23,975 bases of DNA from a virus. The translations under genes and the position numbers were made by a program. The notes beneath the pieces are model-generated. The model ran no database searches, was not told where the DNA came from, and saw only the letters and a program-made list of their open reading frames with translations. Numbering within the stretch: the first letter of the stretch is position 1; every line of letters starts with the position of its first letter. Positions 4,033-23,897 of this stretch are shown piece after piece. The stretch covers positions 1 through 23,975 of IMG/VR virus record IMGVR_UViG_3300010401_000079, one strand, 5' to 3'.

Positions 4033-4365
4033 TCAGTCGGTCAGCGTCGGCGCGGGCGGCGGTGGCGGCACCACGTCGGACACTGGCATGAACGCCCCGG
4101 CCGAGGCGGTGGCGGCGTTGCGCAGCGGCGGCGAGGTCGGGTCGTCGACGTTGGCGATCTGCATCACCGGCATCGGCGGCGGCTCGGTGGCGGCGGCCAT
4201 TTCCGCCATCTGCTCGGCCACGCCACGCTCGTTCTTCAGGATGTAGATGGGCAGGATCCCGACCGGATAGTGCCGCGGCTCCGGTGGCGGCGGATGCGGC
4301 ACCGTCTCGGTGCCGTAGGGCGCGGGGGCCATCTGCCGGGATTCGTCGTCGTGCTTGCGGGCCAT
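4033..4365 (-). CDS. Small proline-rich virion-region protein (110 aa)
   Basis: I do not recognise this 110-residue protein. It has a charged N-terminus (MARKHDDESRQ), proline-rich stretches at both ends (PHPPPPEPRHYP and VVPPPPPAP), and a short central segment with VGILPIYILKNERGVAEQMAEMA. No cysteines, membrane segment or catalytic motif are visible. The start ATG at 4365 has a good AGGAG site. It lies between a head protein gene and the adaptor gene, so a minor structural or assembly role is the simplest guess. Confidence 0.65.
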   Translation of the reverse strand: MARKHDDESRQMAPAPYGTETVPHPPPPEPRHYPVGILPIYILKNERGVAEQMAEMAAATEPPPMPVMQIANVDDPTSPPLRNAATASAGAFMPVSDVVPPPPPAPTLTD

Positions 4366-4373
4366 GTGAGCTC

Positions 4374-4694
4374 CTATGCGAGGGGGCGTCCGTCATCGAC
4401 GCGGAAGAACCGCGTGTCGTCGCGCGACAGCCATTGCAGCAGCGCCTTGCGGTCCTGGGTGATGCCCATGCTGTGCAAGTGCCAGTAGATGACGTTGGGG
4501 ATCGACGCGACCATGCGGCCGCGTCCACGCGCTGCGTTGCGGTCGAACAGGTTGGCGAGCCGCTTGTTGAACGACACGATCGCGTCGGTTTTCTGCCGGC
4601 TGATGATCACCGGCAGACCGCTCTCGCTGTCGCGCACCAGCGCGGTCATCAACTGGGCAGCGTGATCGTGGCGTACGTAGAGGGGATGTGTCAT
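4374..4694 (-). CDS. Hypothetical head-region protein (106 aa)
   Basis: This 106-residue protein has mixed alpha/beta character: PVIISRQKTDAIVSFNKRLANLF and VIYWHLHSMGITQDRKALLQWLSRDDTRFF are its best ordered parts. I do not recognise a named family. The ATG at 4694 has no clear Shine-Dalgarno sequence of its own but overlaps the stop of the 26-residue gene upstream as ATGA, so it is probably translated by coupling. Its place directly after the capsid gene suggests head completion or decoration. Confidence 0.65.
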   Translation of the reverse strand: MTHPLYVRHDHAAQLMTALVRDSESGLPVIISRQKTDAIVSFNKRLANLFDRNAARGRGRMVASIPNVIYWHLHSMGITQDRKALLQWLSRDDTRFFRVDDGRPLA

Positions 4695-4771
4695 AAGGCT
4701 GCGGCGGCGCGACGAGCGGAGATGAAGCGCCTGGGAATCTTCCGAGGCGACGAGTAACTATATGATATCAT
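4691..4771 (-). CDS. Tiny basic peptide gene (26 aa) after the capsid gene
   Basis: An 81-base open frame fills the gap between the major capsid gene and the next gene. Its ATG overlaps the capsid stop as ATGA, and its own TGA overlaps the next ATG as ATGA, so both borders have exactly the coupling used by other gene pairs here. The peptide starts MISYSYSSPR and has six basic residues, no acidic residue and an Ala-rich end (RRAAAAL). It is shorter than a usual ORF cut-off. The double overlap is the main support. It could be a cement peptide, a nucleic-acid-binding peptide, or merely a translational relay that carries ribosomes to the next gene. No family is recognised. Confidence 0.55.
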   Translation of the reverse strand: MISYSYSSPRKIPRRFISARRAAAAL

Positions 4772-5748
4772 TGGTTTAAATCCCACACGCAGGCATGCGC
4801 CTTCGGCGCGGTCGGGCGCAGCGTGCCTTCCCACACAATACCTCCCTGGGTATTATCCCCGGTCTTAGCGTACGCTTCCTCGATCATGTTGCGCGAGGGC
4901 AGCGGCGCCAGCTCGAGATAGTCGGGATCCACCAGCTCGAGCACATGCGCGGGCATATAACGATCCGGCACCAGATCGATTGGCCCGAAATCCGAGAGGA
5001 ACACCCCGACCGCGCCGACGATGGTCACTGGCTGCGGCGAGGTTGCTTGCACAACATTTTGGGCGACGGTGGGGTTCGACGCGCCGCCCTGCGCCATGTT
5101 GGAGAACCATCTTTTGATGGAGGCCGACATGATCGCGGTGCGCGGCTTGCCGCCGGAGTTCCATGACGCCTGGATCGCGTCCTCGACCATGTTGAGGGTG
5201 AGGTCGCGCAACGTGCCGGCGGTGTGGCCGTTGGTGCCGTCGCCGGTCGGAAATGCCCCGGTGCCGGCGCCGACACTGCCGTTGGAACACCACGTCTGGA
5301 ACCCCGCCAGCACGCGCGGGTCGGCGATCGATTTGATCGACTCGCCGGTGATGGTCAGCTCGAGGTCGCGGCGCAGCTCCATGCCGCGCGCGACGATCTG
5401 GCGGGAATACTCCTCGTCGCCCACTTGGTCGACGACGCGCAGCGTGTCCGACACCGCCACCGTACGGGCGAGGATCTGGCATATGTTCCCCAAACGCAAC
5501 GGCTTCTTCGCCGGCGACATCGCCGCGGTGAACCCTTCGGGCTGAGGAACGTTCGCGGCAGCGTAAAGCTCTTGGACTAGCCACTCAGTATTGACCTGCT
5601 CCGCTTCCGAAATAGTGCAAAGCGATACCATCGGGGTATCAGCTTTGTCTATCTGGAATATTACGTCTGCGAGGTCTTCTTTGACGTTCGGGGCGGTCGT
5701 TTCGATGTACGTATTGGTCGGCGCGGCCGACATAGTGGGCAGTGCCAT
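4768..5748 (-). CDS. Major capsid protein (SU10/DUF5309 type)
   Basis: This 326-residue protein is the probable HK97-fold major capsid subunit. The start is typical of SU10-type capsid proteins: a short N-arm, then NVKEDLADVIFQIDKADTPMVSL, then a W-containing strand (NTEWLVQELYAAA). Around residues 80-130 lies the segment with ICQILARTVAVSDT and a helix with MELRRDLELTITG, as expected for the family's spine region. The C-terminal half has DPDYLELAPLPSRN and ends with a strand containing GGIVWEGTLR. Length fits. It follows the scaffold-like gene and a promoter-like leader of about 320 bases. The 5' part of the gene is less GC-rich than its neighbours. No N-terminal protease domain is present. 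Confidence 0.85.
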   Translation of the reverse strand: MALPTMSAAPTNTYIETTAPNVKEDLADVIFQIDKADTPMVSLCTISEAEQVNTEWLVQELYAAANVPQPEGFTAAMSPAKKPLRLGNICQILARTVAVSDTLRVVDQVGDEEYSRQIVARGMELRRDLELTITGESIKSIADPRVLAGFQTWCSNGSVGAGTGAFPTGDGTNGHTAGTLRDLTLNMVEDAIQASWNSGGKPRTAIMSASIKRWFSNMAQGGASNPTVAQNVVQATSPQPVTIVGAVGVFLSDFGPIDLVPDRYMPAHVLELVDPDYLELAPLPSRNMIEEAYAKTGDNTQGGIVWEGTLRPTAPKAHACVWDLNQ

Positions 5749-5766
5749 CGCGTGACTCCATCGCAG

Positions 5767-5783
5767 GCGCGCCTCGGGCGCGC
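5767..5783 (-). other. GC hairpin just upstream of the capsid ribosome binding site
   Basis: A seven-base-pair perfect stem (GCGCGCC with GGCGCGC) and a three-base loop end about 18 bases before the capsid start codon. Such a 5' hairpin could stabilise the abundant capsid mRNA. It is short, and GC-rich palindromes are common in this DNA, so function is uncertain. Confidence 0.35.
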
Positions 5784-6029
5784 GGGGGTTTCGATTGGGG
5801 TCGCGATGGAGACTCCGAAATGAGGTGGCGCGATCGGTGGGTGACCTGGCAGCGCCAGGACTCCGACCCGCATGACATCACCCGCGGTGGGTCGCTCCGT
5901 CGTCGGTGGGCACGACCGCGCCGCGCTGCTGGGTCACACAGGACTGCGCGCGACGACTGCGACCGGCATTGCTGGGTGACGACCCCCGTTGGGGAGAAGG
6001 TCGGGACTGCCATGGCCGGCCGCGCCGGC

Positions 6030-6058
6030 ATCAGAACCGGCGCGCCGGAATCTGTCAA
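6030..6058 (-). promoter_or_regulatory. Candidate sigma70-like promoter for the capsid gene
   Basis: On the minus strand a perfect -35 TTGACA (6058-6053) is followed after exactly 17 bases by TCTGAT (6035-6030), which matches four of six -10 positions. The spacer contains a GANTC site (GATTC, next to the -35) and the 12-base palindrome CCGGCGCGCCGG at 6037-6048. It lies just after the stop of the preceding gene and about 280 bases before the capsid start. The -10 is imperfect, so this is a candidate only. Confidence 0.45.
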
Positions 6059-6071
6059 GAGTGTCGATGGG

Positions 6072-7799
6072 TCAGCCGGCGATCGACCATTTCCGGTCGG
6101 TGTAGCGGCTGGCCGTGCTGTTCGCGTCGATCTGTCCGCGCAGCCAGGCGTGGCAATCGGCGGCACCAACGCAGCCGAGCGCCGCCGCTATCGCCAGTGC
6201 GGACATGGTGTAGCTGGCATAGGTCAGGCTGTCGGCGGCGGGAATCGTCTGCGGGTCATCGCACGCCATATAGTCGGGCTGCAGCCGCTGATTCAGCGCC
6301 CAGCACTCAGCCCAGTCCGCCACATAGGGCGCCTTGTCGGCCTCCCGCATGGCCATCGTGTAGGGCGCAGGCTTGGCGGGCCACCAGCCTGACACGCCGC
6401 TGGTCCGCGCGATGCTGTGCTGGATTTTCCATTCCAAAATCGCCCGCCAGTCCTCGTGCCCCATCTGCACGACATGGCCGAGCACCGCGCCCTCGTAGTC
6501 CTCCTGCCAGGGGCTGGTGTAGCTGCCGTACGGCAGCGTGCTGGTGGCCGGCGAGCCGGTGGCGTCGGCGAGGCAGTGGAACACCGCATAGGGCAGCTCG
6601 GTGTAGGGCGGCGCGCTCGGGTAAACGAACGTGGTCAGCATCCAGTCGCGCTCGCGATCGAGCCAGTCCTGCCAATAGGCGCGCGGCTGGATCCAGTCGC
6701 CGCCGCCATCAGGGGTGACGCGCGCGCAGCGCGCCAGATTGCGCAACTGCCAGGCATGGGCGCGCACCGCCTTGCCGATGGAGAATTTTTCGCGGCTCTG
6801 CGGCGGCGAGCTGATGATGTCGTAGGTGCCCGCGAAATGCTGCTCCTCGAGGTAATACACGTCCCCGGTCAGCAGGTGGGCGACGTAACAAAGCGCCGGC
6901 GTGTGCGCGACATCCAACGTCACCGGGCAGGCGATCCACGGGATGGTCGGGCCATACAAGGTCGCGCCGGGATGCGTGTTGACGTCGAACACGCCGCCGC
7001 CGGTTTCGTTCCGGAAATGCCAGGGGAAGGTGCCCGACGCCTCGGCCTGCGCGAGCAGCGAGTCAGCCGAGGCATCACCGCGCAGGAATTCGGCCTGCGC
7101 CTCGGTGAACAGGCCGATCTCGTCGCGCTCGCCGGTCGACGGCACGTAGGCGGTCAGGCCGGCCAGATCCATCGGCGCGCTATAGACGCGGGCCGGCGAC
7201 AGCGGCCGCGTGGTTGCCAGCGAGGTATCGAAGCGCGGCAGCAGGCCGTCCGCCTGCAGTTCGTCGATCGTGGCGACGATCGGCCGCGCCTTCGACTGCC
7301 AGCGCCAGCGCGAATACCAGTAATGCGCCGGCACGTCGCGCGCGAACAGCAGCGTATCGCCGTCCCAGATCATCGCGGTGTGTTCGCCCATGTTGAAGGC
7401 CTCGACACCTTCCGTGGTGTCGCCCAGTTCAAACACGACCTCGACGCGCGCGGGGTCGTCACTGTCGTCCGTGTCGCAGCGGAATTGCACGACGAAGCCG
7501 GGCAGCGCCGGGTTGGTCACGTCGATGCGGTTCTGCACATAGCCGCCGCGCGGATCGATCCAGTCGCCGCGATCGATGCCGTCGGCCGCGACGAAGCGGT
7601 GAATTTCCGCGCCATCGTTGATGTTGATGGACACCACCAGGCCGGGCGTCGGCAGCGGCGGCGGCGTCGGCTCGGGCGGCGGCGTCGGCTCTGGCGGCAC
7701 CGGCTCCATCGATATGACCGCGGACACCTCAAGCGGCACAAACCCGTCCAGCACGCCGGTGACCGTCAGGGTCAGTTCATTGCGAATCGCGTCGGCCAT
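6072..7799 (-). CDS. Large protein of unknown role between scaffold and capsid genes
   Basis: This 575-residue protein is not confidently recognised. Residues 1-30 look like a short beta domain; a proline linker (PPEPTPPPEPTPPP) follows at about 33-52. The rest is rich in Trp and Tyr and has long alternating helices and loops, for example HAWQLRNLARCAR, YWQDWLDRERDWML, and HEDWRAILEWKIQHS. That pattern resembles alpha/alpha-toroid proteins such as polysaccharide lyases or glycosidases, but I cannot point to catalytic residues. It overlaps the scaffold-like gene by TGATG and precedes the capsid leader, an unusual slot for an enzyme. It may be a capsid decoration protein, a virion-borne depolymerase or an assembly factor. 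Confidence 0.6.
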   Translation of the reverse strand: MADAIRNELTLTVTGVLDGFVPLEVSAVISMEPVPPEPTPPPEPTPPPLPTPGLVVSININDGAEIHRFVAADGIDRGDWIDPRGGYVQNRIDVTNPALPGFVVQFRCDTDDSDDPARVEVVFELGDTTEGVEAFNMGEHTAMIWDGDTLLFARDVPAHYWYSRWRWQSKARPIVATIDELQADGLLPRFDTSLATTRPLSPARVYSAPMDLAGLTAYVPSTGERDEIGLFTEAQAEFLRGDASADSLLAQAEASGTFPWHFRNETGGGVFDVNTHPGATLYGPTIPWIACPVTLDVAHTPALCYVAHLLTGDVYYLEEQHFAGTYDIISSPPQSREKFSIGKAVRAHAWQLRNLARCARVTPDGGGDWIQPRAYWQDWLDRERDWMLTTFVYPSAPPYTELPYAVFHCLADATGSPATSTLPYGSYTSPWQEDYEGAVLGHVVQMGHEDWRAILEWKIQHSIARTSGVSGWWPAKPAPYTMAMREADKAPYVADWAECWALNQRLQPDYMACDDPQTIPAADSLTYASYTMSALAIAAALGCVGAADCHAWLRGQIDANSTASRYTDRKWSIAG

Positions 7800-12966: not shown

Positions 12967-14408
12967 TCGGTGCCGGCGATCACCCGGCGCACCGGGATCC
13001 GGGGGTTGAGCAGCCCGCCCATGCCGAGCTGCAGCGCCATGCCGCCCGGCGCGAAGGTTTGCACTAGGGCATCACCTGCGTCGGGTGACGGTAACCCGCG
13101 GCTGCGCATTTGCGTCTTGCTTTCCACTTGCATGCGGCCGTCCGACATGAAGGACAGCCGCGGGCCGGCCAGGTCGGCGCGCAGCCGTTCGTCGTACGGC
13201 AGCGACACATTGCGGGCTTCCAGCCATTCGCGGCAGCGGATCCATAATTCGTCGCGCATGCGCACGAAGCGCCCGGCGACGCTCGGCGTCTCGCCGACAT
13301 TGAGTCCGAGCACTGGAAGATTCTGCTCGATCAGCCGATCGACCACGCCGCTGCCGATACCGATCACGTCGATAACGATCAACGCTGGCCGCGCTGGCGG
13401 CGGCAACATGTCGAATTCTGCCTTGACCGCGCCGGCGAGCCCCATGGTGTCCACGCCGGTCCAGCGGCGTGGCATTTCGGTGACCTTGTTGCCACGTCGC
13501 TTCACCAGCACCGAGGAGTCGGCGCCGAAGCGTGCCACGTCGAGCCCCCAAATCTCTGGCACAGCCAGGTTCGGTGCCACGTCGCGGCTCATCGCGGAGT
13601 CAATCAGGCCGGCGGGAATCACCGTGTCCTCGTCGGCGGTAGGAAATTCGCCAAGCACGCGCACGCGCCAAGCATTACTGTCCTCGCCGTAGCGGTTGGC
13701 GATTTCTTCGATGAACGCGCGGTCGACTCGCGGCGAGTCGTGGCAATCGACGCGCATGGTAAACCAGCGATCACGCTCGAGGTTGTGCACTCGCCAAAAG
13801 AAACCGGTCGCACGAGTCGGGTTTCCCGTTAATATCGTCAGGGCCCCCGGCGTGGACATCGAGCCGGACGCCGCCTCGAACACCTGTTCGCTGACGCCCG
13901 AGGCTTCATCCACCACCAGCAGCAAATTCGCGGAGTGCAACCCTTGTAGCGACTCGGGATTGTCTGCCCTCGAGGTCCGCGCAGTGACAAAGCATTCGTC
14001 TGGTGCCGCTTTGAGCTTCACGTGATCGGAGTCCACGTCGAACAAGTCTTGCCAGGCAGGCGGCAACAATCGAAACGCAGCACGCACATCGCTCATTAAG
14101 GAGTCGTGCAATTGTGGCGCGCTCGGAGCTGTCACCCCAACCTTGAACGGCGCCCGCGTCGCGCAGAACCAGACAATTGTTGAGCTAAGCCAAAAACCTT
14201 TTCCAACACCGTGACCGGAACGAATCGCAATCCGTCGATGCCCATATGCTAACGCGCGGTTTGCTTGTTCCTGCCAGGGGTCTGGCGTACGTCCAAGCAC
14301 TTCGCGAAAGAATGCGTTCGGCGATCTTGCATAGTGATTGACGCAGATGGCGAATGGATCACCGGAATTAGCAATTAGCTGCGCCACATCGGTATATGTG
14401 TCAGGCAT
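12963..14408 (-). CDS. terL: Terminase large subunit
   Basis: This 481-residue protein is the packaging motor ATPase and nuclease. The start is the ATG at 14408, which overlaps the HNH stop; the longer frame to 14468 lies within the HNH gene. Walker A is SGHGVGKG (64-71), Walker B with the catalytic Glu is LLLVVDEAS (162-170), and the coupling motif is LTGNP (193-197). The nuclease domain shows GLDVARFGADSS with D290, VIDVIGIGSG with D347, and SPDAGDALVQ near 441-450. All key residues are present and the length is usual. The 5' half is much less GC-rich than the portal gene. One stretch around 14161-14220 is about half G+C, which may reflect co-conversion with the adjacent endonuclease gene. 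Confidence 0.95.
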   Translation of the reverse strand: MPDTYTDVAQLIANSGDPFAICVNHYARSPNAFFREVLGRTPDPWQEQANRALAYGHRRIAIRSGHGVGKGFWLSSTIVWFCATRAPFKVGVTAPSAPQLHDSLMSDVRAAFRLLPPAWQDLFDVDSDHVKLKAAPDECFVTARTSRADNPESLQGLHSANLLLVVDEASGVSEQVFEAASGSMSTPGALTILTGNPTRATGFFWRVHNLERDRWFTMRVDCHDSPRVDRAFIEEIANRYGEDSNAWRVRVLGEFPTADEDTVIPAGLIDSAMSRDVAPNLAVPEIWGLDVARFGADSSVLVKRRGNKVTEMPRRWTGVDTMGLAGAVKAEFDMLPPPARPALIVIDVIGIGSGVVDRLIEQNLPVLGLNVGETPSVAGRFVRMRDELWIRCREWLEARNVSLPYDERLRADLAGPRLSFMSDGRMQVESKTQMRSRGLPSPDAGDALVQTFAPGGMALQLGMGGLLNPRIPVRRVIAGTE

Positions 14409-15252
14409 CCGCGACGTGCTTCCAGCTTTTGCGGCCGCGGACTTTGGACACTGTTTGCCGCGCGACACCGAATTGTGCCGCGATCGCCTCGTGACTACCT
14501 TCGGCGGCGCGGATTAGCCGCACCAATGTATCGGTCAGCTTCGCGGCCTTGTGCTTCGCTCCGACAGCGCAGCCAGGATTGAAGGGCTGGATACCTGTCA
14601 GGTGCGACCAGCGTAGCCCGAGCCGGATTTTATTGATGGTCTGGTGATTCACACCAAACTCGGCTGCCAACTCTGACTCTGGGGCAATGCTTCGGGTGAT
14701 CGCCAGCACCTGCGCCGTCGTAAGTTTCGCCTGACGACGTTGCTCACCCCGCGGGTGGCCTCGGCCGACTGCTGGATCAAATCCGGTGAGGTGCCGCCAA
14801 TTCTGACCACGGCGGATGGCATCTACGGCGCTCAGGCTTAACTGATAGTGTTCGCACAAGTCACTGCGCGGAGCGGGGCTGTTCGCGATAGCGATGACAT
14901 CCGCTTCGGTCAGGCGGGTTAGGTAGTGATCGACGCCAATCTGCGTAATCGGAGGCGGTCTGACTCGGCCTTTGCGAAGCGCGTCCTGCATATTTTCCAG
15001 GTGCGTGCCCCAGAACAGGTGATCTGGATTGACGCAGAACCACCTATCGCACGTGTGGCAAGCGTCGAGGTCCGCGCTTGGCGGCGGGCGGTCGTGCAAT
15101 TCGAGCGCGATATGCGTCGCGGGTCGCTTCCGGCCGGAAACGTGGATCTGGGGGCGGCTGGTCGGCGTGCAGTAACCGTCCCACAACCAACAGCCACTGT
15201 TCGGTTCCGGTGAGACATATGCGAAGAACCGTTCCCGCAGCGACTTCGGCAT
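14401..15252 (-). CDS. HNH homing-type endonuclease with three HTH repeats
   Basis: This 283-residue protein probably nicks or cuts DNA at a specific site in related phages. I chose the ATG at 15252 because it has a GGGGGUGA site and because the frame upstream to 15573 reads through structured, non-conserved-looking DNA. The HNH core is at about 20-93: CWLWDGY, HIALEL, CHTCDRWFCVNPDHLFWGT, then LENMQDALRKGRV, typical of phage HNH_3 nucleases. Three repeats of about 42 residues follow at 114-156, 177-220 and 239-280. Each has LT...V..I, a helix-turn-helix core (for example FGVARQTVSKVR) and a W.HLTG-like end, and likely gives DNA specificity. It lies between packaging genes, a common site for such selfish nucleases; a packaging role as in HK97 gp74 is the alternative. 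Confidence 0.85.
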   Translation of the reverse strand: MPKSLRERFFAYVSPEPNSGCWLWDGYCTPTSRPQIHVSGRKRPATHIALELHDRPPPSADLDACHTCDRWFCVNPDHLFWGTHLENMQDALRKGRVRPPPITQIGVDHYLTRLTEADVIAIANSPAPRSDLCEHYQLSLSAVDAIRRGQNWRHLTGFDPAVGRGHPRGEQRRQAKLTTAQVLAITRSIAPESELAAEFGVNHQTINKIRLGLRWSHLTGIQPFNPGCAVGAKHKAAKLTDTLVRLIRAAEGSHEAIAAQFGVARQTVSKVRGRKSWKHVADA

Positions 15253-15277
15253 ATTCACCCCCGTTGGTAGGGTGAAT
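15253..15277 (-). promoter_or_regulatory. Hairpin sequestering the HNH ribosome binding site
   Basis: An eight-base-pair perfect stem (AUUCACCC with GGGUGAAU) encloses a short loop immediately before the HNH start codon. Its 3' arm overlaps the GGGGGUGA ribosome binding site. Homing endonuclease genes in phages such as T4 are known to be translationally restrained by hairpins over the ribosome binding site, so the same logic is plausible here. Confidence 0.5.
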
Positions 15278-15520
15278 CCTAGCGAAACGACCGCGCGGCT
15301 GCTACGTTCGGGATGCGACCGATTGCCTGCGAGAGCGGGCAATGGTGCCCGCCAGGGTATTCGGCCGCCCCGGAGAACCGTCAGATGCTTTGCATCCGAC
15401 TGGCGATCCGGTGGGGCCGGAAGCGGATACGGTTGCTGATCGTGCTCCGCTTCCGAGCCTAGCCGGGGCCGGCAGGGTGTAACCAGCACCCTGCCGGTTT
15501 CGGCAATGTAGGTCTCCCGG
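15253..15520 (-). ncRNA. Candidate structured RNA / leader of the HNH gene
   Basis: The interval between the GcrA-like gene and the HNH gene contains many strong stems. They are an 11-bp perfect stem with a 7-base loop (15469-15497), a 10-bp stem (15418-15427 with 15446-15455), a 9-bp stem with a 3-base loop (15380-15400), and a long-range helix (15370-15379 with 15511-15520) enclosing these. There are also two mutually exclusive stems (15322-15343 and 15335-15352) and an 8-bp stem (15253-15260 with 15270-15277) that hides the HNH ribosome binding site. The 9-bp stem is complete only as minus-strand RNA, through a G-U pair. One stem (15322-15343) fits the plus strand slightly better. No match to group I intron core sequences was recognised. 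Confidence 0.45.
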
Positions 15521-15539
15521 TCATACGCTGCAACGAGGC

Positions 15540-16175
15540 TCACGCCGCGGCCTTCGCTGGCTTGCTGTAGCACCGCGCGCAGTGCTCGGCGCAGTACGCC
15601 GACAACCGGGTGGCGCCCGGCGAGCTGGGCACGCGCGGGCTGTCACAGATCCGCCAAGGATTCTCCGAGGTCGGGAACTGGCAGCCGTCGCCCGGCATGG
15701 TGTCGAGGCAGACGCGGATCGGCGCCGCGACGCGGGCCGCCTCGGCGGCGGCACGCAGCTGGATCGCCCGGCGGGTCGGGGCGCGCGGCTGCACCGGCCT
15801 GGCCACCCGTTTCGGTTTCGCCGGTTTCACCATCACCACGACGTGCGGCTTGGCCGGCCGCAGGTTCCGCCGGTGGATGATGCCGCAAATGACGTTTTTG
15901 CTGACCCCGAGCGCGTCGCCGACCTGCGCCCGGCTGAGTTTCTGCGCCAGCAGTGCCGCCACCCGCTCGACGAAGCCGGGCGCGTAGTAGGGCGAGCGGT
16001 GCTGGGCGCGCGCCTCGCGCACCAGGCGCTCGCAATCGGCGCCGCAATACTCGCTGCCGCGGACGGCATAGCTGCCGCAGCCCCGCCGCCCGCAGAACGG
16101 CGCCGGCACGCGGCGCCTGCCCCCCACGCCCCGTGCAGGAGCCTTCGATAAGACACCCGGGTCCGGTGTCACCAT
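15540..16175 (-). CDS. GcrA-like regulator with extra cysteine clusters
   Basis: This 211-residue protein resembles GcrA, an alphaproteobacterial factor that joins RNA polymerase sigma70 and promotes transcription at promoters carrying methylated GANTC sites. Residues 68-104 form the helix-turn-helix (FVERVAALLAQKLSRAQVG, then GVSKNVICGIIHRRNL), matching the GcrA pattern of ERV...LW..GLS..QIA..LG..RNAVIGKVHR. The C-terminal region ends with CQFPTSENPWRICDSP and YCAEHCARCY, like the GcrA tail that ends in C-W/F-P...YC..H. Unlike ordinary GcrA, an N-terminal cysteine cluster (C28, C33, C44, C48) precedes the HTH. Start is ambiguous: ATG 16175 is chosen for proximity; ATG 16223 is possible. It may redirect host transcription or sense methylation. 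Confidence 0.65.
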   Translation of the reverse strand: MVTPDPGVLSKAPARGVGGRRRVPAPFCGRRGCGSYAVRGSEYCGADCERLVREARAQHRSPYYAPGFVERVAALLAQKLSRAQVGDALGVSKNVICGIIHRRNLRPAKPHVVVMVKPAKPKRVARPVQPRAPTRRAIQLRAAAEAARVAAPIRVCLDTMPGDGCQFPTSENPWRICDSPRVPSSPGATRLSAYCAEHCARCYSKPAKAAA

Positions 16176-16336
16176 GGCCGGGCCGCTATGGGGTGGCGCT
16201 GCCGCGAGGGGGGCCGGTACCATCGGCCCCCGGGGGGGGTCGCCGCGGCGCCGGCCTGGCCGGCCGCCGGCGGCCGGCCGGGCGGCGTCAGAGGCGGCGT
16301 CCGAGGCGTCGTCGTCGCCGGGCCCAGGCTGGTCAT
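16169..16336 (-). CDS. Possible 55-aa Pro/Ala-rich frame
   Basis: A short frame starts at an ATG at 16336 with a GGTAGGGGG purine run before it, and ends overlapping the GcrA-like ATG. The predicted product starts MTSLGPATTTPRTPP and is low-complexity Pro, Ala, Gly and Arg. It lies across a hyper-GC palindromic spacer where stop codons are rare by chance, so it may not be a gene. The ribosome binding site and overlap are its only support. Confidence 0.25.
   Translation of the reverse strand: MTSLGPATTTPRTPPLTPPGRPPAAGQAGAAATPPGGRWYRPPSRQRHPIAARPW
16224..16300. other. Hyper-GC palindromic spacer beside terS
   Basis: The segment between the small terminase-like gene and the GcrA-like gene is almost pure G and C and strongly self-complementary. 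It includes the 16-base perfect palindrome at 16261-16276 (CGGCCGCCGGCGGCCG), repeated GGCCGGC blocks around it, and a CCCCCGGGGG block near 16227-16240. Such structure can act as an attenuator or terminator, although no U-run follows it. Its place beside terS also makes it a candidate packaging signal. Base composition alone could explain part of it. Confidence 0.4.
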
Positions 16337-17031: not shown

Positions 17032-17077
17032 CTGTGGCGTTCACACCTGTTCACGTCTCTTTTTTGAACTGTGAACA

Positions 17078-17086
17078 CTTATAGCA
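17078..17086 (-). promoter_or_regulatory. Candidate extended -10 promoter for terS
   Basis: The minus strand reads TGCTATAAG, an extended -10 (TG.TATAA.) about 47 bases before the terS ATG. No good -35 is seen at the usual distance, which an extended -10 can tolerate. Three hexamers of the array lie between this element and the start codon (17071, 17049, 17039), where a bound protein could block transcription. Confidence 0.35.
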
Positions 17087-17105
17087 TATCTGAGCATAAC
17101 AGATA
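17087..17105. promoter_or_regulatory. Small operator-like inverted repeat
   Basis: TATCTG and CAGATA form six-base arms around a seven-base centre, adjacent to the promoter-like TGCTATAAG. The size matches a typical dimeric repressor site. It could also be chance in this AT-richer patch. Confidence 0.3.
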
Positions 17106-17159
17106 AGACATTGATCTCTCTCTCTCTTTCGTTTCGATGATCGTGTCTTATTCTTCTGT

Positions 17160-17258
17160 GTTCACGCTGTTCACGGAGTCACAGGGGTATGCCCCCGTGC
17201 GCGCGCACACGTACGCGAGTCAGGGGACCCCCCCTGTGACACCGTGAACACCGTGAAC
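17160..17258. repeat. 28-bp near-perfect inverted repeat, 43-bp spacer
   Basis: The arms 17160-17187 and 17231-17258 match as inverted copies at 26 of 28 positions. Each arm holds a pair of hexamers and then GTCACAGGGG on the inner side. The 43-base centre is GC-rich and contains the perfect palindrome GTGCGCGCGCAC (17198-17209). Two GANTC sites lie at 17176-17180 and 17217-17221. A dyad of this length could extrude as a cruciform or form a large hairpin. It is a strong candidate for a replication origin core or a large operator. Confidence 0.7.
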
Positions 17259-17334
17259 AATCGCTTAAACGATGAGCCCGATCAATGGGTTACGCTGTTC
17301 ACACCGCGACGACCCCGCTGTGAACACCGTGAAC

Positions 17335-17425: not shown

Positions 17426-19384
17426 TTAGTGAAGCGGGACATCGCCCGGCCGGGCGATGTCCACCACCTCGGCCAGATCCTCGCGCGGCGCGGCCTCGGT
17501 CGCCGGCTCATTGCCCAGCACCACGTCGATAGGCAGGATCACCGCGCGCGACCTGACACCACCACGAAACCGCCACGGCTCGCGTGAGGCCTGCGCACCA
17601 GGCGCACGCCGCAGCACCTGCGACCAGCCGCCACCAGTCGATGCCTCGGGCAGCGAACGCCACACCGTCCCCTGGAACACCTCGGCCAGCGCGCGGTGCG
17701 TATTGGCGATGACCAGCACCACGGCAGCGTCGCCGCTCACCGGATCCGTCAGCCGCATCAGCCGCAGTCCGTATCGCATCAGGCGGTTGCGCGCTGCCGC
17801 GCCCTCCCGATCGTCCTCGTCGACCTCGATCTCGTCGCCGGCCTCGTCGAACAACGCATGCTGCATCAGGCTCTGCCGCGGTTTCATCAGCCGCCTTGAG
17901 CCGCGGGTGATCAGGTCGCCGAACGCATCCGACTCGGCCCGCATCCGGTCGAGGCGCGACGACAGCAGGTAGTCGACGCACCGCCGCCACTCCGGTGTGA
18001 GCTCGCGCATCGCCGACTCTTTGGCGAGCAGGGTCGGCGGCTGACGCAGCCAGTCGGCCAGCCGATCGGCCGAGAATTCGTCGTGCATGGCGACATCGCG
18101 CGCCGCCCACAGCGCGGCGTAGACATCCGCCGATCGCGTGGGAAATCCATCCGCCTGCATCTGCTGACGCACCGCCGGCAGCACCTCGCGCACCAGCCGC
18201 GGATAGTGATCCGCCAACCGCCTTGTCAGCGCCGCACCCTGCTCGGTGACCTTCTCGATCGCGAACGGCAGCCGCCGGGTGCCGGGCGGATCCTTCAACA
18301 ACTCGAGCACGACGATGCGGCTGGCATCCTGCGACGGCATCGGCGGGACGATGATCGATGAACAGAGAAAACAGCTCGCGACGGTGAACGCGGCACCGGC
18401 GTGACTCGCCCCACCGCGCAGGATCAATGCCCCCGAGCTCGCCTGGCGGATCAGCTTGATGATGCTGGTCTGCCTCGCCAGCTCCCCTTCGGATTCGATC
18501 TCGTCGATGCCGACCGGGATCGAGTCGGATGCCAGATGCTGCCACAGGCCGGCGGCCGAGGCGTCGGTCACCGACACCATGCCGGTCGAGGAAAACAGCG
18601 CCTGCAGCATGGTCTGCAGCGTGGTTTTGCCCGTGCCAAAATCGCCGGTAATCCATAAATGCGGGCGGAACACCAAAGCCCCGCCGAGGATGCCGCAGCA
18701 GATCCAACCGAACGCCAGGTCGACGTCGTAGGTGCCGCGCGCCCAGCGCAGCTCGTCGAGCCGTGCGGTGAGCTGTGCCGCGGCGGCATCGATCAGCGGC
18801 GCCATGCGCGGCCCGAAATCCACCCGCGGCATGGGGCGGCGGGGCACGTAGACGAAATCCCCATGGCGGCCCAGCGTCACCGTGCGGCCGCGCACAAACA
18901 GGTGGTCGCCACGGTGCAGCACGAGATCGCCGTCGGCGCCGATCCAGGCACCGCTGCCGCGCACATGATCGTCGGGCGACCAGTAGCCCATCACCTTGCA
19001 GGCGGCGACGAGCTCGGCGGTCGCCGTCGACACCTCGATGCCGTAGGCCTCGCGGTCTTTGCGGTCCTTGCTCTTGCGGGTTTTCGGGTAGCGTTTCAGG
19101 CACCACGCCGCGCCGGCGAGCGACACCATCATGTTCAGGTTGAGGTCGCGCTCGCGCAGCTGGCGCACGATCCGCACCTCGTTGATCACGTAGTACGACG
19201 TCTCGTCGTAGCCGAGCGGCACGTAGGGGCAATCCTCGCCGAGCATCATCCGCACCTTCTCGGCGCGCGTGTCGGCGGGCACCGCGTCGACCACCGGTGT
19301 GGCGCGGGCGCCACGGCGGCGATCCAGCCGGGTGACCTTGCCGGATTCGGGCGCCTCGCCCGGCGGCACCGGCTCGTCGGGCAT
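17426..19384 (-). CDS. P-loop ATPase, probable replicative helicase
   Basis: This 652-residue protein likely unwinds DNA during phage replication. I chose the ATG at 19384, overlapping the previous stop by ATGA; the frame extends further upstream, but only as an antisense-like reading of another gene. Residues 40-240 hold an accessory domain with a strand-rich patch (WIGADGDLVLHRGDHLFVRG). Walker A is GDFGTGKT (247-254), Walker B is VGIDEIES (D294, E295), and a sensor-like region follows with SCFLCSSIIVPPMPSQDASRIVVLELL. This arrangement matches phage or plasmid DUF927/primase-helicase ATPases more than DnaB. The C-terminal 250 residues are a helical domain and an acidic patch (EIEVDEDDRE). 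It pairs with the upstream Toprim primase. The neighbouring hexamer array may be its origin. Confidence 0.7.
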   Translation of the reverse strand: MPDEPVPPGEAPESGKVTRLDRRRGARATPVVDAVPADTRAEKVRMMLGEDCPYVPLGYDETSYYVINEVRIVRQLRERDLNLNMMVSLAGAAWCLKRYPKTRKSKDRKDREAYGIEVSTATAELVAACKVMGYWSPDDHVRGSGAWIGADGDLVLHRGDHLFVRGRTVTLGRHGDFVYVPRRPMPRVDFGPRMAPLIDAAAAQLTARLDELRWARGTYDVDLAFGWICCGILGGALVFRPHLWITGDFGTGKTTLQTMLQALFSSTGMVSVTDASAAGLWQHLASDSIPVGIDEIESEGELARQTSIIKLIRQASSGALILRGGASHAGAAFTVASCFLCSSIIVPPMPSQDASRIVVLELLKDPPGTRRLPFAIEKVTEQGAALTRRLADHYPRLVREVLPAVRQQMQADGFPTRSADVYAALWAARDVAMHDEFSADRLADWLRQPPTLLAKESAMRELTPEWRRCVDYLLSSRLDRMRAESDAFGDLITRGSRRLMKPRQSLMQHALFDEAGDEIEVDEDDREGAAARNRLMRYGLRLMRLTDPVSGDAAVVLVIANTHRALAEVFQGTVWRSLPEASTGGGWSQVLRRAPGAQASREPWRFRGGVRSRAVILPIDVVLGNEPATEAAPREDLAEVVDIARPGDVPLH

Positions 19385-19752
19385 CAGCTGATGCCGCCGG
19401 CGATCAGGATCCGATCCGGCGTGCCGGCCAGCACGCCATCGGCGAGCTCGACCAGGCGGTCGAACGCCGCCGCGCGCTCGCCGATCGGCGTGCCGCGCAG
19501 ATAGCCCGACAGCAGCGCCGACAGCAGCGCCGCGACCGGCACGATCGACGATTCCATCTCGACGCGGCTGATCCTGCCGCTGGCCACGCGCTCGCGCCAG
19601 AACAGCTCGATCACCGCCAGCCCGTCGGCCAGGCCGCGGTCCTCGATCGCGGCCACCGACAGGATGCGATCCGGCACGTCGACCAGCAATTTGTCGGTGG
19701 CGCGCGTGAGATACGGCACCGAGGCCGGCCGGTGGCGCTTGACCACTTTCAT
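19384..19752 (-). CDS. Hypothetical protein between IS element and helicase gene
   Basis: This 122-residue protein starts MKVVKRHRPASVPYLTR and is mostly helical, with DRGLADGLAVIELFWRERVA and VPVAALLSALLSGYLRG as the longest helices. No family is recognised. Its stop overlaps the helicase ATG as ATGA, so it belongs to the replication operon. The insertion element lies immediately upstream, and a GGAGG ribosome binding site at 19758-19762 lies at or within the element boundary. Whether that site came with the element cannot be decided here. Confidence 0.6.
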   Translation of the reverse strand: MKVVKRHRPASVPYLTRATDKLLVDVPDRILSVAAIEDRGLADGLAVIELFWRERVASGRISRVEMESSIVPVAALLSALLSGYLRGTPIGERAAAFDRLVELADGVLAGTPDRILIAGGIS

Positions 19753-19770
19753 CTGGGCCTCCGCGAGAAA

Positions 19771-19790
19771 CCCCGTCCTTCAGGGCGGGG
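19771..19790 (+). repeat. Left-end hairpin of the IS element
   Basis: CCCCGTCC, loop TTCA, GGGCGGGG forms an eight-pair stem with one T-G pair. It matches the right-end hairpin except in the loop, and both point the same way, as expected for TnpA recognition sites. Confidence 0.75.
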
Positions 19791-19801
19791 AGGGATAGCG
19801 G

Positions 19802-19818
19802 GGCGTGCAAGGCACGCC
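19802..19818 (-). terminator. Hairpin directly after tnpA
   Basis: GGCGTGC and GCACGCC form a seven-pair stem with a three-base loop that begins right after the tnpA stop. No T-run follows, so it may be a weak terminator or a second structural element of the left end. Confidence 0.35.
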
Positions 19819-20229
19819 TCACGGCGCCGCCGAAGCCCGCTGCTGCTGGATGTATTGCTTGACCTGTTCCAGCGGAGCGCCCCCAGTCGAGGCTGCGAAG
19901 TAGCTTGGCGACCAAAGCACATCATCGCGGTATCGGGCGGCAATGTCGGTCCGCGCTTGCCGCAGCAGGCGGCTGGATGTGCCCTTGAAGGCGTTGACCA
20001 GCACCGAAATGGAGTGTTTCGGCGGATACTCGACAAGTAGATGGAGGTGGTCCGCCTCACCATCGCAGGCGAGCAGCGCGCATCCCATTCCGCCGAACAC
20101 TTTGGCCGCGTGTTCGCGCAGCCATGCCAGGGCGGCATCGTCCAGCACCTTGCGCCGATACTTGGTGACGCAGACCAAATGGACTGTGAGCCTGGAAACG
20201 CTGTGTCGTTCGCGCCTAAAGTCTTGCAT
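19819..20229 (-). CDS. tnpA: IS200/IS605 Y1 transposase TnpA
   Basis: This 136-residue enzyme is a single-strand transposase of the HUH family that cuts and rejoins the hairpin ends of the element. The HUH metal-binding motif is HLH at 61-63 within GEADHLHLLVEYPP, preceded by strand VHLVCVTKYRRKVL. The catalytic tyrosine is Y126 in LEQVKQYIQQQ, near the C-terminus. The segment VNAFKGTSSRLLR and the WSPSYFAAS stretch are also conserved in the family. Length is normal. It is divergent from tnpB, as in IS605-like elements. All key residues are present, so it should be active. Confidence 0.92.
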   Translation of the reverse strand: MQDFRRERHSVSRLTVHLVCVTKYRRKVLDDAALAWLREHAAKVFGGMGCALLACDGEADHLHLLVEYPPKHSISVLVNAFKGTSSRLLRQARTDIAARYRDDVLWSPSYFAASTGGAPLEQVKQYIQQQRASAAP

Positions 20230-20258
20230 TTGCCGCGCAGACCAATTACACGGCCCGC

Positions 20259-21299
20259 ATGATATTGACCTACCGCTACAGGATCAAGGATGCGACGACC
20301 GGGAAGCACCTCGATGTGCTCAGCCGGTCGGTCAATCGCGTCTGGAACTACTGCGGCGAGGTCCACGAGGCGTCGCGGCGCCACAATAAGCGATGGCCCA
20401 GCGCGTTCGACATGATCAAGCTGACGACCGGCTCCGGCGCCATGCTTGGCCTGCACAGCGACACCGTGCAGGCGGTCTGCAAGCAGTTCGTTGGTAGCCG
20501 CGATCTGCACCGCCGACGCCCTCGGTGGCGTGGCAAGAAGTCCCTCGGCTGGGTTCCGTTCGCTGCCGCCCGCGCCATCAAGCTGGACGGCGATGCGGTG
20601 ATCCACCTCAAGCGACGGTATCGCTTCTGGAATAGCCGGCCAGTTGGTGGCGATATTCGATGCGGCAGCTTCGCCCAAGACGCACAGGGGCGCTGGTATC
20701 TCAACCTCCAGGTCGAGGTTGCAGCCGACAATGCCTGCGGACCTGGCGAAGTCGGCATCGACCTCGGGTTGAATACTTTGGCGGCGATGTCCGATGGATC
20801 GAAGGTCGCCAACCTTCGACACTACAGGAAATACGAGCGAGCATTGGGAGTGGCGCAGCGCGCTCGCAACAAGGGTAGGGCGAAGGCAATCCACGCGAAG
20901 ATTGTCAACGCCAGACGACACCACCTGCATGAGCAGTCCACGAAACTTGTGCAGGCCAATAAGCTGATCGTTGTAGGCGACGTGAACGCCAAGACGATGA
21001 CGCAGACCAGGATGGCAAAGTCCGTCCTGGACGCGTCGTGGTCCGGCTTTCGGTCGATGCTCCGCTACAAAGCCATGAGGCACGGGGCGCGATACGTCGA
21101 GGCCGACGAGCGTGGAAGTTCCGTGACCTGTTCCGCGTGCGGTGCGTGCGGCGGCCCTAAAGGTATCGCAGGTTTGCGAGTGAGAGACTGGGTTTGCGAT
21201 AGCTGCGGTGTTCACCATGATCGGGATACCAATGCTGCCTTGAACCTATTGCTCGGGGTGGAACGCCACCCTCTGGTTGCAGAAATCCCCGTCCTTTAG
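20259..21299 (+). CDS. tnpB: TnpB RNA-guided nuclease with altered RuvC-II site
   Basis: This 346-residue protein is TnpB, an RNA-guided nuclease ancestral to Cas12, which helps the element persist. RuvC-I is GIDLGLN with D168. RuvC-III is HDRDTNAALNLL with D321 and D323. The zinc ribbon has C291, C294, C313 and C316. The usual RuvC-II glutamate (E in VVEDL) is a glycine here: the sequence reads IVVGDVNAKTM, G240-D241. From memory, a TnpB group with VGDV...KTRMAKSVLDA has this pattern, and such proteins may use a relocated acidic residue; loss of activity is the alternative. The protein is on the short side for TnpB. Its last codons overlap the right-end hairpin, as in most TnpB genes. It is the only gene in the window clearly on the plus strand. 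Confidence 0.9.
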   Translation: MILTYRYRIKDATTGKHLDVLSRSVNRVWNYCGEVHEASRRHNKRWPSAFDMIKLTTGSGAMLGLHSDTVQAVCKQFVGSRDLHRRRPRWRGKKSLGWVPFAAARAIKLDGDAVIHLKRRYRFWNSRPVGGDIRCGSFAQDAQGRWYLNLQVEVAADNACGPGEVGIDLGLNTLAAMSDGSKVANLRHYRKYERALGVAQRARNKGRAKAIHAKIVNARRHHLHEQSTKLVQANKLIVVGDVNAKTMTQTRMAKSVLDASWSGFRSMLRYKAMRHGARYVEADERGSSVTCSACGACGGPKGIAGLRVRDWVCDSCGVHHDRDTNAALNLLLGVERHPLVAEIPVL

Positions 21300-21312
21300 G
21301 GCGGGGAAGGCG
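21170..21312 (+). ncRNA. Probable omega RNA scaffold at the tnpB 3' end
   Basis: TnpB proteins use a guide RNA made from the 3' part of their own gene and the right end of the element, with the guide copied from flanking DNA. Here the scaffold should include the last part of tnpB and the hairpin at 21287-21306; the guide would start close to 21313, in the 3' end of the methyltransferase gene. The 5' limit given is a guess. Confidence 0.5.
21287..21306 (+). repeat. Right-end hairpin of the IS element
   Basis: CCCCGTCC, loop TTTA, GGGCGGGG repeats the left-end stem with one loop change. The tnpB stop codon TAG (21297-21299) lies across its loop and 3' arm. Confidence 0.75.
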
Positions 21313-21972
21313 TTAATCGCGCACCGCCTTGATCAGCACCGGCACCAGATCGCGGAAGATCACCTCGTATTCGGCCTCGCTCGCGAACAGGCTGCGGAAC
21401 AGGCTGTCGTCGCCGTCAGGGTAATCGCGCAGCGTCAGCCGCCATCCCGCCGCCTTCAGCTCGTCCTGCATCTGCTCGCCGTACAACGCCCAGGCGTAGA
21501 GTCGCTGATGCATCAGCTCGTTGGTACCGCCGAGCCGCTGATAATCGTAGACGAACAGCGCGCCGCCGGGCGCGGTCAGCCGCGCTGCCTCGCGGAGCAC
21601 CGTGTAAAAACTCGCAGCGTGGCACAGCGAGTAAAGGAACATGCAGCCGTCCACGGCGCCGTCGCCGAGCGGCACCGCCGCCATGTCGGCCTCGAGCGTG
21701 CGGAATCCCTCGGGCACCTGATCCAGCTGGTAGCGGTTATTGTTCACCAGAATGAATCTGAGATCCGGCCGCAGTTCGCGCATGTGGCGCGCGACCTCAC
21801 CGAAGCCGCAGCCCATGTCGAGCCAGAGCGTGTGGCGCGGCGGCGCCATATACGCCAGCAGCCGCACCACATGCAGCTCATCCGTCGGCGCCAGCCGGTA
21901 GCCCTGCAGGATCCGCAGGCCTCGCTCCCAGCCGGCGCGCGAGGCCGCGGTGAGCATGTCCTGCGGGATCAT
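21313..21972 (-). CDS. Class I SAM-dependent methyltransferase-like protein
   Basis: This 219-residue protein has a Rossmann methyltransferase layout. Motif I is LWLDMGCGFGEVARH (49-63), motif II is near LRFILVNNNRYQLDQV, an acidic motif is RTLEADMAAVPLGDGAVDG, and motif IV-like CMFLYSLCHAASFYTVLREAARL is followed by APGGALFVYDYQRLGG. This is typical of small-molecule methyltransferases such as those acting on sugars or lipids; there is no DPPY or similar motif of a DNA N6 or C5 enzyme. I chose the ATG at 21972, which overlaps the previous stop. The frame is complete because the IS inserted after its stop. Why a replication operon carries it is unknown; base or nucleotide modification is one guess. 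Confidence 0.7.
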   Translation of the reverse strand: MIPQDMLTAASRAGWERGLRILQGYRLAPTDELHVVRLLAYMAPPRHTLWLDMGCGFGEVARHMRELRPDLRFILVNNNRYQLDQVPEGFRTLEADMAAVPLGDGAVDGCMFLYSLCHAASFYTVLREAARLTAPGGALFVYDYQRLGGTNELMHQRLYAWALYGEQMQDELKAAGWRLTLRDYPDGDDSLFRSLFASEAEYEVIFRDLVPVLIKAVRD

Positions 21973-22522: not shown

Positions 22523-22881
22523 GCCTCGGCGGCCGGGCCGGGGCCGAACGGCAGCGGCGCCCCCGCCGGCGCGCTCACCGTGCCATTGGCTTTCGGTTTG
22601 CGGCCGCGCCTGGTGCCTGGCTTGGCGTCTTCGCTGGCGGGTTTCTTGTTTGCCGCGCGAACGGCGGCGGCTTCGCGCGTGCGCTTGTGGTCGGCGTATT
22701 GCCGCGCGTAGCGCGCCTCGAGGTAGTCCAGCGCCTCGCGCAACCGATCGATGGTGTGCCGTGTGCCGTGGAAATTGGCCACGTTCTCGCCGAACAGCAA
22801 TTCGCCGAGCGTCTGACGCATGGCCCGGTCGGATTTTATGATTTCCTCGATCTGCTGTTCGATCATCGGGAATTCACTCAT
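22519..22881 (-). CDS. Hypothetical protein with basic tail (120 aa)
   Basis: I chose the ATG at 22881 because it overlaps the primase stop as ATGA; the upstream extension lies inside the primase gene. The N-terminal two thirds are helical (MIEQQIEEIIKSDRAMRQTL, then IDRLREALDYLEARYARQYA). The C-terminal third is disordered, with an AT-hook-like basic motif RRGRKPKA and a Pro/Gly-rich end. A DNA-associated role is plausible given its place beside replication genes. No family is recognised. Confidence 0.6.
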   Translation of the reverse strand: MSEFPMIEQQIEEIIKSDRAMRQTLGELLFGENVANFHGTRHTIDRLREALDYLEARYARQYADHKRTREAAAVRAANKKPASEDAKPGTRRGRKPKANGTVSAPAGAPLPFGPGPAAEA

Positions 22882-23897
22882 CGCGTCGCCTCCAGTTCGC
22901 TCTGCCAATAGGCGTTCGCATCCTTGAAGCCCGCCGGCGGCACCCATTGCGCCACCGCGCGGCCCTCCTCGCTCCAGTGCAACAGGGTGTCGCGCCGCAG
23001 CTGGGTGACCGCCTCATTTTCCCCGTCGCGGTCCATCACCAGCACCAGGTCGGCGAGCGTCTCGGGCAGCGCGAGCGCGGCGAGATTGCCCGCCGAGACG
23101 TAGGCCAGCGCGCGCCGCTCGGGGAACCACTGCGCCACCGTGAGCGTGTTCTCGATGCCCTCGCCGAGCAGGGCGGCGTCGCCCTCCGGCGCGCGCCCGA
23201 GCGGCTTGTCCGAGGCGCCGCGGGTCAGTGGGATGATCCCACCGAGGCCCGGTCCCAGCAGCTTCTTCGCCGTCTCGAGCGGCGCCTTGCGCCAGAGCCG
23301 TCCGTCACCCGCCAGCCAGGTGCGATGGGTGGCGATCTGCACCCTGGTCAGCGGGTCGATCACCGCCGCCACCATCGCCGGCATGTGCCGCTCGCGCTCG
23401 GTGTTCCAGCACGAGGGGTGGAAGCGCAGCGCGTTGAGCGGGCGGTCGTCGAACGCCGCGCGGTCGATGCCGCGGCCCTCGAGGTAGCAGCCCACGGGTC
23501 CGTCCCAGTCGAACGGCGTGGCGTGCAGGTACATGCCTAGCGCGGCGGCGTTGCGCGGCGGCAGGGGCTTGTGCGGCGGCCGCTTCGGTGGGTCAGCTGG
23601 GTCAGGTGGGGCAGCCGCCTCGCCGAGCCAGTCGAGTGCCCAGCGAAACGCCGCGACGTGGTCGCCGGCGCAGAATGCATCGCGGATCAGCGACAATCCC
23701 GAGGTGCCGGCGGCGCCGGATCCGAAATTTTGCCATTTGGCAACTTTGGCGCCGGCAATAACGATTCCCCATTTACTGCCGTCGGGGCCGTGGCCGACCC
23801 ATTCGCGGCCGATCACCCGTCCGTCAGGCGCGACCTCGCGGGCGAGGGCGATGATACGCAAAATTAACAGTTGCTTGACGGCGTCAGGCGACAGCAT
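22878..23897 (-). CDS. Toprim-domain DNA primase
   Basis: This 339-residue protein is a phage primase that makes RNA primers. Residues 1-95 form an N-terminal domain with GPDGSKWGIVIAGAKVAKWQNF, as in phage primases lacking a classical zinc finger. A Pro-rich linker at about 97-113 follows, then a domain with a conserved RFHP motif (158-161) and IDPLTRVQIATHRTWL. The Toprim catalytic part has LLGEGIENTL (E246, E249) and VLVMDRDGEN (D289, D291), both needed for metal binding. The ATG at 23897 overlaps the preceding gene. It stands at the head of the operon that also encodes the helicase-like ATPase, so they probably act together. Confidence 0.85.
   Translation of the reverse strand: MLSPDAVKQLLILRIIALAREVAPDGRVIGREWVGHGPDGSKWGIVIAGAKVAKWQNFGSGAAGTSGLSLIRDAFCAGDHVAAFRWALDWLGEAAAPPDPADPPKRPPHKPLPPRNAAALGMYLHATPFDWDGPVGCYLEGRGIDRAAFDDRPLNALRFHPSCWNTERERHMPAMVAAVIDPLTRVQIATHRTWLAGDGRLWRKAPLETAKKLLGPGLGGIIPLTRGASDKPLGRAPEGDAALLGEGIENTLTVAQWFPERRALAYVSAGNLAALALPETLADLVLVMDRDGENEAVTQLRRDTLLHWSEEGRAVAQWVPPAGFKDANAYWQSELEATR

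Follow-up and report, generated by a model that had tools for sequence, protein, structure and literature searches.

A mirror-image iteron array around an alternating purine-pyrimidine tract: a likely replication origin beside an SF3/D5-like phage helicase gene

The locus and its genes

The window, that is, the whole stretch of DNA analysed, is the 23,975-base IMG/VR phage record IMGVR_UViG_3300010401_000079. Nearly all of its genes are carried on the minus strand, in the order primase, small genes, methyltransferase, helicase, gap, 221-aa gene, GcrA-like gene, HNH gene, terminase and head genes. The features considered here are as follows.

17039..17334, no strand assigned: array of iterons, 296 bases with ten GTTCAC/GTGAAC cores, proposed as the replication origin
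17039..17174, no strand assigned: half A, five sites, mirror image of half B (plus-strand reading: GTTCAC at 17039 and 17049, GTGAAC at 17071, GTTCAC at 17160 and 17169)
17077..17159, no strand assigned: AT-rich stretch inside half A (64% AT), a possible additional unwinding element
17196..17217, no strand assigned: strictly alternating purine-pyrimidine tract CGTGCGCGCGCACACGTACGCG, 22 bp, proposed melting or deformation site
17244..17334, no strand assigned: half B, five sites (plus-strand reading: GTGAAC at 17244 and 17253, GTTCAC at 17297, GTGAAC at 17320 and 17329)
17426..19387, minus strand: SF3/D5-like helicase, 653 aa, proposed initiator binding the array (phrog_21086 / phrog_35358)
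17522..17632, minus strand: helicase residues 586-622 (GGWSQVLRRAPGAQASREPWRFRGGVRSRAVILPI region), put forward as the iteron-reading segment from covariation with motif bases
17552-17554, minus strand: codon of helicase residue 612, the top covarying position
19819-20229, minus strand: Y1 transposase of an IS200/IS605-type insertion
20259-21299, plus strand: TnpB/OrfB of the same insertion
22878..23897, minus strand: DUF7146 + Toprim primase, a separate gene on the same strand as the helicase, probable initiation partner

The IS200/IS605-type insertion (19759-21318) is flanked by a 122-aa gene and the methyltransferase gene. It is missing in the relative IMGVR_UViG_3300048894_000068 (L004), the helicase of which is 96% identical to that of the window, and therefore probably entered the replication module recently. 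The HNH endonuclease gene (14401-15573), which has HTH matches, separates the GcrA-like gene from the terminase. L004 has nothing corresponding to about 1.2 kb here (14369-15581), and the gene is thus probably a mobile homing-type endonuclease. The GcrA-like regulator (15540-16223; phrog_16311) gives only a weak Pfam GcrA match, and its presence fits an alphaproteobacterial host.

The ten-site array

A first-pass annotation, made without database searches, had claimed that the ten sites at 17039-17334 were far above chance and included four pairs at a one-turn spacing, and both claims held. Exact GTTCAC/GTGAAC copies number 18 in the window, against 7.8 expected and a count that none of 100 shuffles reached, and ten of these 18 fall within the array; a first-order Markov model of the region gave a mean of 0.41 sites and a maximum of 4 in 20,000 trials. 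Four pairs of sites are 9–10 bp apart. Three copies of the doublet GTGAACNNNGTGAAC are present in the window, all inside the array, and three in a 42-kb relative, again only in its array. Each of these two genomes has a single array. The annotation had also stated that its reading would be refuted if the unit were absent from all relatives or common across the genome; neither condition was fulfilled, as relatives retain the array and it is not dispersed over the genome. All ten sites keep their sequence and spacing in L004, with 60 of 60 site bases identical and 12 of the 236 bases between sites changed. To the earlier description can be added the 5+5 mirror-image halves and the 22-bp alternating tract between them.

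The array is richer in AT (48%) than the window (33%). Its centre (17175-17243) is not AT-rich (29% AT) but alternating, and the 64% AT stretch lies off centre. The measurement of GC skew, one of the checks suggested in the annotation, revealed no turning point at the array in either the window or the 42-kb relative.

The helicase next to the array

The array lies 92 bp past the stop codon of the helicase gene. A Pfam search with the helicase found no family above the cut-off and no Pfam-level match to the P4/D5 helicase models, and a PDB sequence search with its profile returned only a P-loop protein (E 3.5e-5), which was uninformative. The AlphaFold model (mean pLDDT 86) has the SF3 AAA+ fold, at a low TM-score, with fold matches to the NrS-1 enzyme, the SaPI5 primase-helicase (7ola), ASFV PrimPol and Mpox E5 (E 5e-8 to 1e-6, prob 1.00). 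The best PDB match is the primase-polymerase-helicase of phage NrS-1 (6k9c; E 5e-8), with TM-scores of only 0.28–0.30 by query length and about 11% identity; given these low scores, the protein is regarded as a distant member of the SF3/D5 group. To our knowledge, no iteron array has been described for NrS-1. The window helicase has no primase domain, the primase being encoded separately. Its C-terminal domain has a predicted order of helix-strand-strand-helix-helix-strand, which fits a P4-type winged helix, but a fold search with this domain alone found nothing significant in the PDB, and the P4 origin-binding fold is therefore not claimed.

Arrays beside related helicases

Distant relatives of the helicase (25–33% identity) have no GTGAAC arrays, but most have another hexamer array near the helicase gene, and viral loci encoding helicase relatives were collected for this reason. 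The sample consists of 297 distinct loci, and arrays were called at a score of at least 9, the maximum in 297 shuffled loci being 8.1, with no array in any of them. Hexamer arrays above this threshold, with about 7–13 copies of a short motif, were found in 240 of the 297 loci: 233 downstream from the helicase gene, seven upstream and none inside it. The downstream arrays were centred no more than 750 bp from the helicase stop in 151 cases. No significant array was found within about 5 kb in the other 57 loci, and a few of the scored arrays are coding or simple repeats rather than iterons (e.g. L237, L430 and L432). A homologue of the primase is present in 148 of the 297 loci. In a separate set of named bacterial genomes, nearly all of them from Alphaproteobacteria where named, most loci had arrays and some had no clear array.

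After refinement, the motifs fit NNNNAC(A/G/C), and 69 different 4-mers precede the AC; examples include GTGAACA (window), AGAACC, CCTAACG, GGGGACA, TACGACA, CACAACG and TTAGACA. Neighbouring sites on the same strand are mostly 8–12 bp apart. The innermost sites across the centre are inverted in 168 of the 173 arrays with a clear centre, and the commonest half-array counts are 6+6 (the mode), followed by 6+5, 5+5 (as in the window) and 5+6. In about a fifth of the arrays, including that of the window, the orientation of the motif cannot be assigned unambiguously, a problem affecting palindrome-like motifs. Relative to NNNNAC, the arrays fall into two orientation classes, one with inward-pointing and the other with outward-pointing inner sites (L020, L058 and the window differ in this respect from L042), for reasons that remain unexplained; the strand orientation of the window motif is left open because of these two classes.

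The central alternating tract

The tract at 17196-17217 is the only alternating run of at least 16 bases in the window, and it has five sites on each side, in mirror order. Of 194 arrays of the family, 169 have a central tract that ranks in the top 5% when compared with control windows from their own loci. The alternating run at the centre has a median length of 18 bp, versus 8 bp in the control windows, and is centred at 0.51 of array length. The rate of alternation is 0.72–0.76 within 20 bp of the midpoint between the innermost sites and about 0.5 elsewhere. The composition of the tract follows that of the genome (r = 0.71), with TATATA in AT-rich phages and CGCGCA in GC-rich ones. In 46 disjoint pairs, substitutions within the tract comprised 112 transitions and 37 transversions, as against 1246 and 1657, respectively, outside it (OR 4.0, p 9e-15). 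Changes in the tract are thus mostly transitions, which keep the alternation, suggesting that alternation itself is preserved. Each pair includes one member selected on the basis of its tract, and part of the transition excess could therefore be due to ascertainment, although this seems improbable as a full explanation, given the size of the effect.

Which protein reads the motif?

Above 50% identity, the more alike two helicases are, the more alike their motifs. Helicase residue 612 ranked first of 476 columns for mutual information with motif bases (standardised z 7.5), and residues 595, 606, 602 and 614 also stood out. The second base before AC is G in 29 of 32 cases with Lys at residue 612, A in 17 of 25 cases with Gln, and mostly T with Thr, Ala or Asn; the window helicase has Arg at this position, which is not diagnostic. 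In identity-controlled contrasts of 103 disjoint pairs of relatives, residue 612 again ranked first (of 454 columns), and residues 586-622 exceeded the other columns (p = 5e-4). A third ranking placed six of its top 12 columns inside this 32-column segment. L296 and L017 have helicases that are 95% identical; their motifs differ, and the 586-622 segment carries substitutions.

These controls for relatedness are approximate. Nearly all the sequences fall in one cluster, making the cluster-stratified permutation behind the third ranking weak, and it serves only as a ranking. Leave-cluster-out prediction from residue 612 reached 0.50, versus 0.35 for the majority base and 0.41 for the nearest outside relative, but at coarser clustering it was no better than the majority base. 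The residue-base code is real in aggregate but incomplete. The terS-like and GcrA-like proteins proposed as binders in the first-pass annotation are disfavoured, because their homologues are detectable in only one of the 297 helicase loci. Given the covariation between motif bases and the C-terminal helicase segment, and the absence of other candidate binders from nearly all loci, the helicase is the best candidate reader. It probably reads the array through this segment, although direct binding is inferred here, in the absence of binding data.

Similarities to known replication systems

The annotation had recognised no known origin type, and this claim failed on two counts: the GTTCAC core is identical to that of the annotated type-1 repeat of the ori and crr of phage P4, and the array lies directly 3' of the initiator gene, as do P4 crr and the origins of phage-inducible satellites (PICIs, including SaPIs). 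The P4 record has ten type-1 repeats (TGTTCACC / GGTGAACA) in crr and six more in ori. The octamer TGTTCACC ends in C, whereas the window sites end in G or A, nine of the ten sharing the 7-mer TGTTCAC. The annotated P4 repeats include doublets 9–11 bp apart, close to the spacing of the window pairs, and P4 crr (4291-4590) is directly 3' of the alpha gene (4636-6969, minus strand). The P4 alpha initiator is, like the window helicase, an SF3-type helicase (PMC4234260), but it fuses a Toprim primase, the SF3 helicase and a C-terminal binding domain. P4 also differs in having two arrays (ori and crr) and no long alternating tract in either, the longest runs being 7 and 5 bp.

The SaPI Rep protein binds iterons just downstream of the rep gene with its C-terminal domain (PMC7581432), a mode that covariation supports for the window helicase, and the PICI origin, immediately 3' of rep, has two iteron sets flanking a central element (PMC6092414). 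The window array shares the position of the origin in PICI/SaPI rep-ori, and in SCCmec Cch2, immediately 3' of the helicase gene, and its two mirror-image sets are the counterpart of the two iteron sets. The PICI/SaPI centre is, however, simply AT-rich rather than alternating, and these elements are satellites without particle genes of their own, whereas the window phage has terminase, portal and other head genes. SaPI sequences were not among the controls. The authors of a 2018 study reportedly considered this plan of origin to be found in PICIs alone. The open literature (subscription papers were outside the search) yielded no description of the alternating tract or helicase-iteron covariation; these two features look new, and the initiator-iteron plan was already known.

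A proposed origin and its alternatives

The comparative evidence strongly supports the earlier suggestion that the repeats are iterons of an origin. The array is likely to be the replication origin of the phage, read by the adjoining helicase, although this rests on comparative sequence evidence and not on any binding or replication experiment. It is probably a self-contained initiator-iteron origin, of a known kind but in a new phage form; no experiment shows origin activity. In the mechanism proposed, each half-array would load one helicase hexamer via the C-terminal DNA-reading domains of its subunits, and the two hexamers, oppositely oriented, would sit face to face on either side of the tract. 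The tract is proposed as the opening site because every second step in alternating DNA is a pyrimidine-purine one and stacks weakly; ATP-driven movement of the hexamers would strain and open it, and two forks would then start, with primers from the DUF7146-Toprim primase of the phage. With a private motif, each initiator would fire mainly its own origin. The number of hexamers, their facing and the opening step are all inferred from the numbers of sites (modal six per half) and the SF3 family.

Three other explanations can be considered. The array could be a cooperative operator, bound by the GcrA-like, terS-like or another phage regulator, controlling the operon that begins with the 221-aa gene. 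Indeed, it sits just upstream of the start of this gene (17031, minus strand), and the GcrA-like gene then follows. However, homologues of the GcrA-like and 221-aa proteins were detected in only one of the 297 loci, versus arrays in 240, the motif bases covary with the helicase C-terminus, and mirror symmetry about a tract selected for alternation would not be expected of an operator, making this reading unlikely. Marginally stronger, but still improbable, is the possibility that binding of the array by the helicase serves chiefly regulation or copy control, as in the additional role of plasmid iterons or in P4 crr, which is one of two required sites, and that synthesis starts elsewhere. In favour of this reading, the P4 record places rep_origin 4.5 kb from crr, which it calls a cis-required region, and GC skew does not mark the array. 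Against it, the window and the 42-kb relative have one array each, the central tract suggests a melting site, and PICI origins directly 3' of rep drive plasmid replication (PMC6092414). Both explanations fall far below the origin reading.

Symmetrical repeat arrays also occur at centromere-like sites, and the array could, in principle, be a partition site or a packaging or recombination signal for an unidentified binding protein. This is very unlikely, as the array stays with the helicase gene in hundreds of genomes and its motif covaries with the helicase C-terminus.

Under the origin reading, a bolder hypothesis can be formulated, which in our judgement could equally well prove right or wrong as a whole: that a single origin design is common to tailed phages and prophages of a very large group, with two mirror-image iteron half-arrays taking one helicase hexamer each, a centre selected for purine-pyrimidine alternation rather than for sequence or AT content, and a few residues in the helicase C-terminus setting the spelling of the iterons. 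If this is true, the alternating tract represents a new type of melting element at origins, and initiator specificity can be read from the residue-base pairs as a code. The tract provides a testable hypothesis as to how double-hexamer helicases open DNA that is not AT-rich. The plan recurs in hundreds of viral loci, alphaproteobacterial prophages among them, and it allows the origins of these to be predicted from sequence alone. Nature provides pairs of near-identical helicases with different iterons, through which one can test how an initiator picks its origin and what determines whether satellites and phages cross-replicate.

The isolated phages S-H1 (L010), KLER1-1 (L011) and Acjo_20 (L012) have the same kind of array beside their primase-helicase genes and are possible laboratory systems; in Acjo_20, the array lies upstream rather than downstream of the primase-helicase gene.
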